Shown here piece by piece: positions 45,941-50,007 of a stretch of DNA of 53,176 nucleotides. This DNA is from Candidatus Lambdaproteobacteria bacterium RIFOXYD2_FULL_50_16 (GTDB lineage: Bacteria > SAR324 > XYD2-FULL-50-16), in the NCBI GenBank assembly GCA_001783695.1, contig MFNE01000026.1, positions 74,948 through 128,123 on the forward strand. The letters are read 5' to 3'. The position numbers and the translations under genes were made by a program. Below the pieces are notes generated by a model that saw only the letters and a program-made list of their open reading frames with translations, did no database searches and was not told the origin of the DNA. Positions within the stretch are counted from its first letter, which is position 1, and each line of letters begins with the position of its first letter.

Positions 45941-46333
45941 CTATTGACGGGTCAAAACTTGCTGATTGTAGCTCTTGGCTTTAAAAAACTCGGCCGAGAA
46001 AGCAGCAGCGGCATCGGCGTCGTAGGCTTTACAGCTGAAGACGTCCAAATAAGCAGCATTGGTGTTGTTTGCGAAATGGCCTGAAATCAGGCTGGTTTCG
46101 ATCAACTGGGTCATTGAAAAGCCGGTAACTTTTTCATCGGCACCAAAATGCACGATCTGAGTTTCCCCAAAAGCTTTCATTTCCAGCAACTTCACTAAAC
46201 GTGCTACGTATTCAGTAATTGCTTCGCGACTGCGAATCAATTCTGGATCGCACTCGTACAAATCAATCGCCGTTGACCAGCCCCAGGGCTGAGTTTCAGT
46301 TACGTGCGACGTTATAGGTCTGGTCGAATTCAT
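45941..46333 (-). CDS. Divergent SpeD-like protein (possible neofunctionalised pyruvoyl decarboxylase)
   Basis: 130 residues with the AdoMet decarboxylase fold pattern: an N-terminal strand, a central VTGFSMTQLIETSLISGHF in place of the usual ESHxSIHTWPE, then YLDVFSCKAYDADAA, which matches the SpeD DIFTCG segment. A Ser that could form the pyruvoyl group is kept, but the preceding residue is Thr rather than Glu and the adjacent His is Leu. The gene overlaps the end of the SpeD-SpeE fusion by 38 bases; AAGGAG lies ten bases before the ATG. Published work, as I recall it, shows SpeD homologs that became ornithine or arginine decarboxylases. That would supply putrescine here, but it is unproven. 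Confidence 0.72.
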   Translation of the reverse strand: MNSTRPITSHVTETQPWGWSTAIDLYECDPELIRSREAITEYVARLVKLLEMKAFGETQIVHFGADEKVTGFSMTQLIETSLISGHFANNTNAAYLDVFSCKAYDADAAAAFSAEFFKAKSYNQQVLTRQ

Positions 46334-47588
46334 CGATTCCGCTCTCCTTAGTTATGACTTGGAAATCGCCGGCCAAAAGATTGGCGACGAAAGGGGGTTG
46401 GGCAGTCAACCCTTGATGGGTCCGCCCGTTGTACAACTTGAGCCCGGTTACTCCACGGTCCTTAAGGCGTTGTTCGATTAAATCGACGCTTTGGTGGTCC
46501 ACTTGGGTTTGAGCCGAGCAGAATGCGAAGCCCATTTCGGCTCCGTACAACGGTACAAATTGCAGACCATGAGCAACCTGGCCAAAAACAGAAGCCAAGG
46601 TCACCCCGATCCGACCAAAGACAGCAGGGTGGAAAAAGGGATAAACCGTATGCAATGATAAAATCGACTCAGGGCCCTTCATGGCACCCTTTACGGTTTC
46701 GTAAAACTCTTTGGTGTAAAGACTACGCGCCGGACCGATGGGATCGGTCAGGTCTAAAATAATCACATCGAACCGTTCCTTAGTTTGGGCAAGATACTTA
46801 AATCCGTCACCAATAATAAGCTCGGTTCTAGGGTCTTTGAAAGCCCCTTGGTGAACAGCTGGCAAAAATCGCTTTGAGACCTCAATCACCCGGTCATCAA
46901 TTTCGACCATTACCGCCCGCTTGACCGTATTGTGCTTAAGCACGTTAGCCAACACACCTCCATCACCAGCACCAATGATTAGAACCTGCTCTGGCCGCTC
47001 GTGAGCGGTCATGGCGGGCTGAACCAAGGGTTCATGGTAAAAATGCTCGTCTTCTTCAGAGGTCTGATAAAACTTGTCGATTCTAAGTAAACGACCAAAG
47101 TCTTTGGTGTGATAAACCTCCACTTCTTGAAGCGAGTCTTCACTTTTATATAGGATCGCTTCGGGTTTGATAAAAAATCCGTAGTCTTTAGAAAAGTACT
47201 CGGTATATTTATCGTCTTCGAAGTCTCGATAACCTTTGATGATCTTCTCGTTTACATCCAAAGGCTCAAACAGGTCTTTTAGGCTTTGGGCTAAAACCAA
47301 GGCCTTGTTGGTGTTGTCCTGTTCGTAATTACACACCGAGATATCCAGGTTGAGATAAAAATCTCGCTCTGGCCAAGTGTGAATATTGAGGTGCGACTCG
47401 GCCAAAACCACCGAGGCCGTAACCCCTCCGCCGTCACCAAAACCGTAACCGGCTTCAGCAACGATCTCCAGACCAGCCAACTTCACCTTGAGTTTAAGAA
47501 CCTCTAACAAGGCTTTTTGGTCAGTAAAAAGATGCCGACTGTTGCGGCAACGAATGTATTCGGCGATAACGTGGATTACTTGTCTCAT
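46296..47588 (-). CDS. speDE: SpeD-SpeE fusion: AdoMet decarboxylase plus spermidine synthase
   Basis: 430 residues. The N-terminal domain (about 1-120) is bacterial S-adenosylmethionine decarboxylase with an intact autocleavage motif LAESHLNIHTWPE, where the Ser becomes the pyruvoyl group. The C-terminal domain (about 135-415) is spermidine synthase: HEPLVQPAM, LIIGAGDGGVLANVLKH, VEIDDRV and ILDLTDPIGPAR. The fusion puts both steps (decarboxylated AdoMet, then aminopropyl transfer to putrescine) on one chain; such fusions are known but not common. A divergent SpeD paralog overlaps its 3' end. The ATG at 47588 has only a weak upstream GAAG. Confidence 0.93.
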   Translation of the reverse strand: MRQVIHVIAEYIRCRNSRHLFTDQKALLEVLKLKVKLAGLEIVAEAGYGFGDGGGVTASVVLAESHLNIHTWPERDFYLNLDISVCNYEQDNTNKALVLAQSLKDLFEPLDVNEKIIKGYRDFEDDKYTEYFSKDYGFFIKPEAILYKSEDSLQEVEVYHTKDFGRLLRIDKFYQTSEEDEHFYHEPLVQPAMTAHERPEQVLIIGAGDGGVLANVLKHNTVKRAVMVEIDDRVIEVSKRFLPAVHQGAFKDPRTELIIGDGFKYLAQTKERFDVIILDLTDPIGPARSLYTKEFYETVKGAMKGPESILSLHTVYPFFHPAVFGRIGVTLASVFGQVAHGLQFVPLYGAEMGFAFCSAQTQVDHQSVDLIEQRLKDRGVTGLKLYNGRTHQGLTAQPPFVANLLAGDFQVITKESGIDEFDQTYNVARN

Positions 47589-47971
47589 TGCGGCTTCACG
47601 GCGAAAGGAATGAGCTATGCAGGGCTAGAAAAAAAGATAATCTGGTCCCCTTGTTACTTTTTTTCAAGCTTTTTTTTTGCCCTGGTTAAAATTTCCGTTA
47701 CGGCCTTGATACATCCCCATGTAGGGGTGCTGACAAAAAGGGCCAAAAACGGATTTACCGATTTTGGGAGGCAACCCCTCAAAAAACCTTGGATCTGGAG
47801 CCAATACTTTATATGCTTTTTGTTTAAAAAATACCTCTTCTTCTGCCAAACGGTACCGCCTTCTCAGGGTTTGATTGTACCTAAATTTTAATGGTGACGG
47901 CAAGAGCAATCGCAAACCCCTTGGCAAAGGCGGATTTAAAGGACTATAAAAGGGAAAAGGAAGAGGATAAA
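47589..47971. other. Divergent intergenic region between speDE and the receiver gene
   Basis: 383 bases. A minus-strand frame (47664-47927, 87 aa) exists but resembles nothing and lacks support. Two long A/T homopolymer runs (around 47662-47689) lie upstream of speDE. A promoter for the receiver operon is at 47921-47950. A small GC hairpin (47711-47723 area) is the only other structure. Confidence 0.45.
47921..47950 (+). promoter_or_regulatory. Putative promoter of the receiver/pseudo-ABC operon
   Basis: TTGGCA (47921-47926) and TATAAA (47945-47950) with an 18-base spacer. The start would lie near 47957, just before the GAGG ribosome-binding site of the receiver gene (ATG 47972). Confidence 0.45.
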
Positions 47972-48349
47972 ATGGGACTGTTTAAAGAAAACTTTGTGGT
48001 ACTGGTCGTTGAAGATAGTCAGGCACAATTGACCTTGATCAATAAAATCATAGCTAAGATTGAAGGGGTAGAGACCCTATTGTGTCGCGATGCTTTTGAG
48101 GGGTACGCTATATTAAGAGCAAAACCTGATATTGGGTTGATTATATTAGATGTAAATCTTCCCTTTGCCTCTGGCTTGGGATTACTGAAAAAAGTGCGTA
48201 GCCTTCAAAGTTATAAAACTCTTCCAGTTTTGATCTCGACCGCTGAAGAGGACACCCAATTGGTCGTAGAAGCAGGTGCGACTGGTGTTTTGCAAAAACC
48301 CTTTAATTTCGAACAACTCAAATCCTTTATCACGAATTATCAGCGGTAA
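47972..48349 (+). CDS. Single-domain response regulator (receiver only)
   Basis: 125 residues from the ATG at 47972 (GAGG five bases upstream). A lone receiver with VVEDSQAQ, the phospho-acceptor Asp in ILDVNLPFASG, the Thr/Ser in ISTAE and the Lys in LQKPF. No output domain follows, so it probably acts as a CheY-like or phosphorelay shuttle. It heads a five-gene run with a small membrane protein, a cupin, a degenerate ABC ATPase and an unknown protein. Residues upstream to 47891 are in frame but outside the domain. Confidence 0.92.
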   Translation: MGLFKENFVVLVVEDSQAQLTLINKIIAKIEGVETLLCRDAFEGYAILRAKPDIGLIILDVNLPFASGLGLLKKVRSLQSYKTLPVLISTAEEDTQLVVEAGATGVLQKPFNFEQLKSFITNYQR

Positions 48350-48358
48350 AGAGGCCAA

Positions 48359-48556
48359 ATGGTTGAACCCGATTGGTTATGGTTTGTGGGGCTTGGTCTT
48401 CTTTGTTTGACCCTGCTTTTAGGGATTGTCATAAAACTTGTCGAAATCAGACGACTCTTAAAAAACCGGCGTCGTTTTATTGACCAACTGACGAATCACT
48501 ATGAACGTATCGAAGATCGATCAAAAACTGATCGATCAGGTAGCCGCGAAGGCTAA
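48359..48556 (+). CDS. Small single-pass membrane protein (65 aa)
   Basis: A hydrophobic segment (about 7-27, WLWFVGLGLLCLTLLLGIVI) is followed by a strongly basic stretch (RRLLKNRRRF) and a short charged tail: a type of small anchored protein that could tether partners to the inner membrane. GAGG is four bases before the ATG, nine bases after the receiver stop. Its 3' end overlaps the cupin gene by 56 bases, more than usual, so the exact stop of the pair's arrangement deserves checking. No family recognised. Confidence 0.62.
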   Translation: MVEPDWLWFVGLGLLCLTLLLGIVIKLVEIRRLLKNRRRFIDQLTNHYERIEDRSKTDRSGSREG

Positions 48557-48995
48557 GGCCAACCCTCGATTGAGGATGAACCATAATTTTCATCAGCCCC
48601 AAGACTTGGTTCAACGAATGCTAAACGCGATTGAACCGGGCAGCTATGTGCGCCCTCACTGTCACGCTAACCCTCGCAAAGACGAAATATTTTTGTGCCT
48701 GCAAGGGGCCGGTGCGTTGGTAGTTTTTGATGAAAGAGGGAGTGTCTCCCAATTTTGTCCGTTAAAGCCCAATGCGGGCTATTTTGGGGTCGATGTCCCC
48801 GCAGGCACCTATCACACCATCTTAAGCTTGGCTGAGAGCAGTGTTTTTTACGAAGTTAAATTAGGCCCCTATTTGCCAACCAACCACAAGGACTTTGCTG
48901 ATTGGGCTCCAGAAGAGGGCAGCCAAAAGGCCAAGGTTTATCTGGAAGAATTAGTCCTATTGGCCAAGGAAGAAATGGGCTGGTTGGAGCGATAA
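48501..48995 (+). CDS. WbuC-like cupin metalloprotein
   Basis: 164 residues of the WbuC cupin group: a short helical lead (KIDQKLIDQVAAKAK), ARLRMNHN-like segment, then VRPHCHANPRKDEIFLCLQG with the cupin His/Glu metal ligands, VVFDERG, and DVPAGTYHTIL with the second His motif. Family members are linked to polysaccharide loci elsewhere but lack a known reaction. It overlaps the small membrane protein gene and abuts the degenerate ABC gene (TAA followed by GTG), so it belongs to the same operon. Confidence 0.85.
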   Translation: MNVSKIDQKLIDQVAAKAKANPRLRMNHNFHQPQDLVQRMLNAIEPGSYVRPHCHANPRKDEIFLCLQGAGALVVFDERGSVSQFCPLKPNAGYFGVDVPAGTYHTILSLAESSVFYEVKLGPYLPTNHKDFADWAPEEGSQKAKVYLEELVLLAKEEMGWLER

Positions 48996-49682
48996 GTGGC
49001 CGCGCTGGTAGAGATGAGCAATGTCGGATTGTTCCCTGGTGAAGAATGGGGGCTTCGCGGGGTTGATCTGGAGCTTCACTGGGGGCGTAGATACCTGATT
49101 CAATTAAAACAAAAAGACCAGCTTAATGGGCTATTGGGGATCATGGAGGGCCGGTTTAAGGCTGACCAGGGCGTGGTCACCAAAACCCGTGAGTATTTGT
49201 GTCGTTCAGATCGGCAGCTTCTGGGGGATAAAGTTTACCGCCGGAGCGCAGGGGCGATTTTGGCGGTGGAGAGTCAGCCGATTTTTCGCTTTGGGGAGGA
49301 GCGCCGGGTCAAACAAACCATGATGCTCCAGATCAAGGCTTGGCACCTGCGCCATTTCCCGATTTACAAGCTACATGGCCTTGATCGGGTTCGTTTTGCA
49401 CTACTGCATCTGGCTTTTCAGGAGACTGGCTTAATTCTGTTAAGCCAGATTTTTTTTAAGGCCTTAGACGAACCGATGTTAGCCCTGTTTTTAGAGTTTT
49501 TGCAAAAAAGCCCTTGTGCCTTAGCGATTGCCCAAGCAGATGAAGAGCCCATTCCCGAACTTGAGGCTTGGTTAGAAGGAATTAAATATGAGACGATTGA
49601 CCTTCGCGGGGAGCGCCGTTCTCGAATCGGTGTTGAGTCGGGACCCAGGGAAGAATCGGGGGGCATAAAACTTGAACATTGA
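48996..49682 (+). CDS. Degenerate ABC-ATPase-like protein (pseudo-ATPase)
   Basis: 228 residues. It aligns position by position with ABC nucleotide-binding domains, but every catalytic motif is changed. Where the P-loop should be it reads LIQLKQKDQLNGLLGIMEG, with the Walker A Lys replaced by Leu. The signature region reads KLHGLDRVRFALLHLAF. Walker B reads LILLSQIFFKALDE, with Ser for the Asp and Gln for the catalytic Glu. The switch His appears as AIAQADEE. The surrounding hydrophobic spacing is kept. It therefore probably binds a partner without hydrolysing ATP. GTG start, directly after the cupin stop, with GGAG six bases upstream. Confidence 0.72.
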   Translation: MAALVEMSNVGLFPGEEWGLRGVDLELHWGRRYLIQLKQKDQLNGLLGIMEGRFKADQGVVTKTREYLCRSDRQLLGDKVYRRSAGAILAVESQPIFRFGEERRVKQTMMLQIKAWHLRHFPIYKLHGLDRVRFALLHLAFQETGLILLSQIFFKALDEPMLALFLEFLQKSPCALAIAQADEEPIPELEAWLEGIKYETIDLRGERRSRIGVESGPREESGGIKLEH

Positions 49683-49722: not shown

Positions 49723-50007
49723 ATGGACGAAAAAACGCTAAACGCCCAGGTCAAGGAATTTGCGGGTCAACTTTGCGACCAAGCGGCGGGTTATAAGGAG
49801 CTTTTAGAAGCAGCCAATCTTCTGATTGATCAGGCGATACTGCTTATTCGCCAAGGGGCATTGGAGACCCAGCCTATTTCTACGATCGCAGAATTAACCC
49901 CCGTGCAACCTGGTCCAAACATAAGCCCAACCCCGGCCCCGCCAGCCCTTGCTGAAGGCAGTGCACCTAAGTCGGACCTACCCATTGCGGCGGCCTTTCG
50001 GCTTTAA
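49723..50007 (+). CDS. Unrecognised 94-residue protein
   Basis: A helical N-terminal half (DEKTLNAQVKEFAGQLCDQA and a second helix to about residue 48) is followed by a Pro/Ala/Ser-rich low-complexity tail (about 55-90). One Cys is present. AAAAGG lies four bases before the ATG, 40 bases after the pseudo-ABC gene. Its stop overlaps the convergent epmA stop. No family is recognised; position suggests membership of the receiver/pseudo-ABC operon. Confidence 0.6.
   Translation: MDEKTLNAQVKEFAGQLCDQAAGYKELLEAANLLIDQAILLIRQGALETQPISTIAELTPVQPGPNISPTPAPPALAEGSAPKSDLPIAAAFRL

Follow-up and report, generated by a model that had tools for sequence, protein, structure and literature searches.

We describe a phylum-wide family of pseudo-ATPases, ABC domains lacking the motifs for ATP use that are kept by selection across most of SAR324, on the basis of a gene from Candidatus Lambdaproteobacteria bacterium RIFOXYD2_FULL_50_16, a member of this phylum. 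The gene lies in a stretch of 53,176 nucleotides, hereafter the window (GCA_001783695.1, contig MFNE01000026.1, positions 74,948 to 128,123 of the forward strand), as a single open frame of 228 codons with a GTG start (48996-49682, + strand), and its product, referred to below as the pseudo-ABC protein, was assigned through its predicted fold and its homologues. The explanation towards which we lean is that of a pseudo-ATPase, i.e. an ABC domain without ATP use that would be kept as a protein- or RNA-binding module and that most likely comes from the second nucleotide-binding domain (NBD2) of an ABC-F protein.

Searched as a single sequence against Pfam, NCBIfam and the PDB (phmmer), the window protein returned no match; only profiles and folds were thus informative, and its recognition as an ABC protein was not trivial. 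The ABC domain proposed for this frame by a first-pass annotation, made from the DNA letters alone, was recovered concordantly by AlphaFold2, Foldseek, VIA-align and profile-profile comparison. The AlphaFold2 model built on the family alignment (pLDDT 89.7, pTM 0.83) displays a complete ABC nucleotide-binding domain, with a best Foldseek E-value of 1e-10 (EttA) and a VIA-align superposition onto ABC domains of Z 16.8 and rmsd 3.2 over 187 residues, and comparison of the family profile with sixteen intact SAR324 ABC domains (hhalign) gave a probability of 97%. A second model was produced for a homologue from another family of the phylum (f3), ~20% identical to the window protein, using an alignment from which sequences of the window's own family (f1) were left out; it reached a pLDDT of 87.8 and showed the ABC fold again, with a better Foldseek score (E 2.4e-14). 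Structure prediction, a check set beforehand, therefore returned an ABC fold for both the window protein and a distant homologue and, within the limits of prediction, establishes the protein as an ABC fold with an alpha/beta core and a helical subdomain.

The residues expected of an active site have been replaced within this predicted fold. Aligned with intact ABC domains, the former Walker A motif or P-loop (residues 37-44, 49104-49127, + strand, as are all motif positions given here) reads LKQKDQLN in place of GxxGxGK[S/T], with Leu43 at the position of the Lys, as the first-pass annotation had stated, and Asn44 at that of the Ser/Thr. At the end of the former Walker B (49443-49451), Ser150-Gln151-Ile152 replace Asp-Glu-Pro, which places the claimed changes of the Walker B Asp to Ser and of the catalytic Glu to Gln at the right columns. 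The joint alignment described below also agrees with the claimed loss of the signature, where HGLD (residues 127-130, 49374-49385) stands for SGGE with one Gly surviving, and of the switch His, which is Ala181 (49536-49538). The same alignment shows that the D-loop is retained (Leu157-Asp158, 49464-49469, the Asp being found in 31 of the 42 family members), so that the annotation's description of every catalytic motif as replaced holds for Walker A, Walker B, signature and switch, but not for the D-loop. As a separate observation, the gene contains a hairpin of 10 pairs with eight consecutive T after it (49426-49456, + strand), which spans the Walker B codons and resembles an intrinsic terminator; among 14 members compared it is specific to the window, being absent at the same codons from the 13 relatives, and Rfam gave zero matches around the gene.

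Loss of the motifs extends to the whole family. In a joint alignment of 42 family members with intact Uup, YbiT-type and transporter domains, Walker A is lost in 42/42, all three P-loop glycines are gone from practically every member, and no homologue retains an intact P-loop or the full motif set (0/42), an outcome that sides with the first-pass annotation on its orthologs. Within the family decay is graded, a Lys occupying the Walker A Lys column in 15/42 members and the Walker B Asp being retained by 12/42. Neither the window protein nor any of 24 members tested matched the Pfam ABC_tran model (PF00005). Judged from sequence, the pseudo-ABC protein is not a functional ABC ATPase, as it lacks the motifs of Walker A, Walker B, signature and switch. 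Other positions are newly conserved: the Q-loop Gln, present in 23/23 intact ABC-F NBD2 domains, is Ser or Thr in 39/39 near-full-length members and is followed by Asp or Asn in 39/39 (Ser71-Asp72 in the window protein, 49206-49211), and the former P-loop shows EEQ or a similar sequence, the third glycine position being occupied by Q in 74%. This combination of [S/T][D/N] and EEQ-like residues is the pattern to be expected if the pocket region were re-used rather than drifting. The family was also examined for the uniformly positive charge that RNA binding would suggest, and none was found, the net charge ranging from -10 to +13.

Homologues were collected by whole-genome search, some being picked up only by profile. 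In 52 SAR324 (Candidatus Lambdaproteobacteria) genomes, a strict profile search, which excluded from the count matches weaker than 1e-38, these being intact ABC-F proteins of ~600 aa, detected the family in 42. It is absent from the other 10, two of which are more than 90% complete (G028 and G029), indicating that loss or strong divergence occurs. Across 285 genomes from other phyla no small protein of this type was found, the only profile matches being frames of 512-776 aa (E 1e-14 or better), a size as expected of ABC-F. Identity to the window protein is 48% in the nearest relative, 30-42% in the rest of f1, 24% in family f2 (same order) and ~20-28% in families f3 and f4 (same class).

Several comparisons point to ABC-F proteins as the nearest intact relatives. 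Among PDB sequences, the family profile matched Uup best (2e-28, the best stretch being NBD2), followed by ExpZ, YheS, ABCF1 and EttA, whereas matches outside ABC-F were far weaker (CcmA 2e-8, P-glycoprotein 3e-7). Profiles built separately for f1, f3 and f4 each scored Uup NBD2 top among SAR324 ABC domains, with a small margin for f1 (19.9 vs 14.3 bits). ABC-F chains also topped the Foldseek lists of both models, EttA, Uup and Arb1 making up the first nine for the f3 model, while in VIA-align they were tied with transporters. In a maximum-likelihood domain tree, the pseudo-ABC family forms one clade (100/99) on long branches; its sister position by Uup NBD2 is unsupported (47/26), and neither YbiT-type NBD2 (p 0.256) nor transporter domains (p 0.073) were rejected as alternative sisters. 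Profile, fold and sub-family comparisons thus place the nearest similarity with NBD2 of ABC-F (Uup/EttA), a sister relationship that the tree alone does not resolve, and descent from such a domain is likely, with profiles and Foldseek in agreement and the tree not showing it.

The pseudo-ABC protein nevertheless departs from each of its closest counterparts. With Uup NBD2, its best match in the PDB and among SAR324 domains, it shares the order of strands and helices, but Uup has a linker and a C-terminal domain besides its two ATP-binding domains, whereas the pseudo-ABC protein is one domain with neither linker nor ATP motifs. EttA, the translational throttle and best fold match of both predicted models, differs in being a two-domain active ATPase of the ribosomal E site. 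CcmA, involved in cytochrome c maturation, is likewise a single compact domain (~205 residues) of similar fold (VIA-align Z 16.0), but it is an active ATPase and its sequence match, as given above, is far weaker than that of Uup. The window protein holds one nucleotide-binding domain in 228 aa and gave no match to the ABC-F linker PF12848 (ABC_tran_Xtn); because two domains and a linker were both tested for and neither was found, we do not class it as an ABC-F member.

Under the pseudo-ATPase explanation that we favour, ATP binding and hydrolysis would have been lost in a SAR324 ancestor and the domain retained as a protein-binding or RNA-binding module; the present protein would bind no ATP and would act by constitutive binding in place of an ATP cycle. 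Its binding site may be associated with translation, either on the ribosome or on an ABC-F factor of the same cell, for instance one of the YbiT type. This step is the weakest of the explanation and we put it forward tentatively, in view of the ABC-F ancestry, of the ubiquity of ABC-F in SAR324, where 15/15 good genomes carry the linker domain, and of the efp-epmA neighbourhood in f1. Uup/EttA-type ABC-F factors bind the ribosomal E site. In f1, the pseudo-ABC gene faces convergent epmA in 7/9 loci and efp in 6/9, NCBIfam models having identified both genes in the window; in Bacillus subtilis, genetic cooperation links ABC-F to EF-P (PMC11381351). A more specific version, in which a free-standing, ATP-independent factor derived from one ABC-F domain binds the ribosome or ABC-F factors and bears a newly selected EEQ-like/[S/T][D/N] pocket, is conceivable but doubtful.

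Gene context varies across the phylum. In most f3 loci the pseudo-ABC gene is divergent from tsaE-tsaB, and in some it stands 46-149 bases ahead of dnaG-rpoD. The f4 copies lie ahead of lolD-bamA-skp-fabZ, in the same orientation (lolD, tsaB, rpoD and fabZ being partly named by eye from sequence). As neighbours differ between families, the association with efp is confined to f1. The neighbours are housekeeping genes, and as none of them is common to all families across 30 neighbourhoods, context does not name the function.

The alternative that best withstands these data, although we consider it unlikely, is that of a cytoplasmic adaptor or regulator unlinked to translation, whose remodelled pocket would for example hold a small ligand, or which would work with an operon neighbour such as WbuC in f1. 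The conserved EEQ-like and [S/T][D/N] residues are compatible with it, as the pocket region may be reused, and in the window a WbuC-family cupin (48501-48995, + strand; TIGR04366, E 5.9e-46) ends at the base directly preceding the GTG start, WbuC adjoining the pseudo-ABC gene in 6/9 f1 loci with gaps of 0-91 nt. Outside f1, however, WbuC is not a neighbour, and no partner recurs in all families. The surrounding region of the window holds further genes. Downstream, a small protein of 94 aa with a Pro-rich tail (49723-50007, + strand) has weakly matching counterparts in the equivalent position in two f1 relatives (E 7e-4 and 0.016). WbuC is preceded by a response regulator and by a one-helix membrane protein of 65 residues (47891-48556, + strand), both recurring in the nearest relative (G002), and on the opposite strand (45941-47588) an AdoMet decarboxylase and a spermidine synthase are fused in one frame (SpeD-SpeE), the fusion overlapping a second, separate AdoMet decarboxylase gene.

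Less probable again is a silent, non-hydrolytic half of a heterodimer in an ABC transporter or lipoprotein-release machine, paired with an intact domain such as LolD. Known degenerate ABC sites generally retain ATP binding, and the inactive site belongs to a pair that works; the silent half of known degenerate exporters still binds ATP, which speaks against such a role for a protein devoid of its P-loop. The f4 arrangement ahead of lolD is the only point of context in its favour: among the neighbouring genes examined at 30 loci, lolD in f4 was the only recurring adjacent ABC gene, and no lolD or transporter gene adjoins in most f1, f2 and f3 loci; a membrane subunit encoded elsewhere in the genome would escape such a comparison. 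Transporter domains were not formally rejected as sister in the tree, but by similarity ABC-F comes ahead of LolD and other transporter domains. Silent sites are common in heterodimeric ABC exporters, whose substituted catalytic residues are kept by selection (PMC7756269), and which provide the nearest known analogy to the pseudo-ABC protein; those exporters, however, generally keep the P-loop and act in membrane transporters, whereas here the P-loop is gone and no transporter partner was seen.

That the protein specifically serves the Uup ATPase, as a substitute for Uup NBD2 or as its competitor, appears very improbable, even though that domain is the closest intact one. Existing Uup proteins have both domains intact, near-full-length Uup-type proteins occur in just 17/52 genomes, and genus g9 and family f4 carry the pseudo-ABC gene without a detected Uup, a distribution that makes an obligatory pairing unlikely and by which we reject an obligatory dependence on Uup. 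As an aside on these proteins, the first domain of SAR324 Uup-type ABC-F (e.g. L173:4598-6394, - strand) is short, its Walker A and Walker B being 112 residues apart against 144-146 in the phylum's YbiT type, so that the Uup-type Arm appears truncated.

Substitution patterns bear on whether the gene has a function at all. In close pairs, dN/dS is ~0.13-0.42, a value drawn nearly entirely from f3, a sister family of f1, as f1 itself holds no pair close enough, and it reveals purifying selection in those pairs. Together with the presence of the family in 42 of 52 SAR324 genomes, it lends support to the first-pass suggestion of selection for a non-hydrolytic role. A decaying relic without function, to which the fast divergence between families (~20% identity) and one copy in 42 with an early stop could be credited (G005, f1, L057:7480-7800, with an in-frame TAA near the N-terminus that reflects decay or an error of sequencing), is largely refuted already by the open frames found phylum-wide, by these dN/dS values and by the confident fold predicted for two distant members, and we give it next to no credence.

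In our literature search, whose coverage omits most subscription journals, no description of a motif-less or single-domain ABC-F protein was found, and the family described here is recognised by neither Pfam nor NCBIfam; its phylum is known chiefly through metagenomes. The total loss of P-loop, Walker B, signature and switch, and yet the retention of the protein across most of the phylum, suggest that the ABC fold may be selectable purely as a binding module. If the pseudo-ABC protein acts on the ribosome, it would represent a single-domain, ATP-free derivative of ABC-F that could help to separate the effects of binding from those of hydrolysis.
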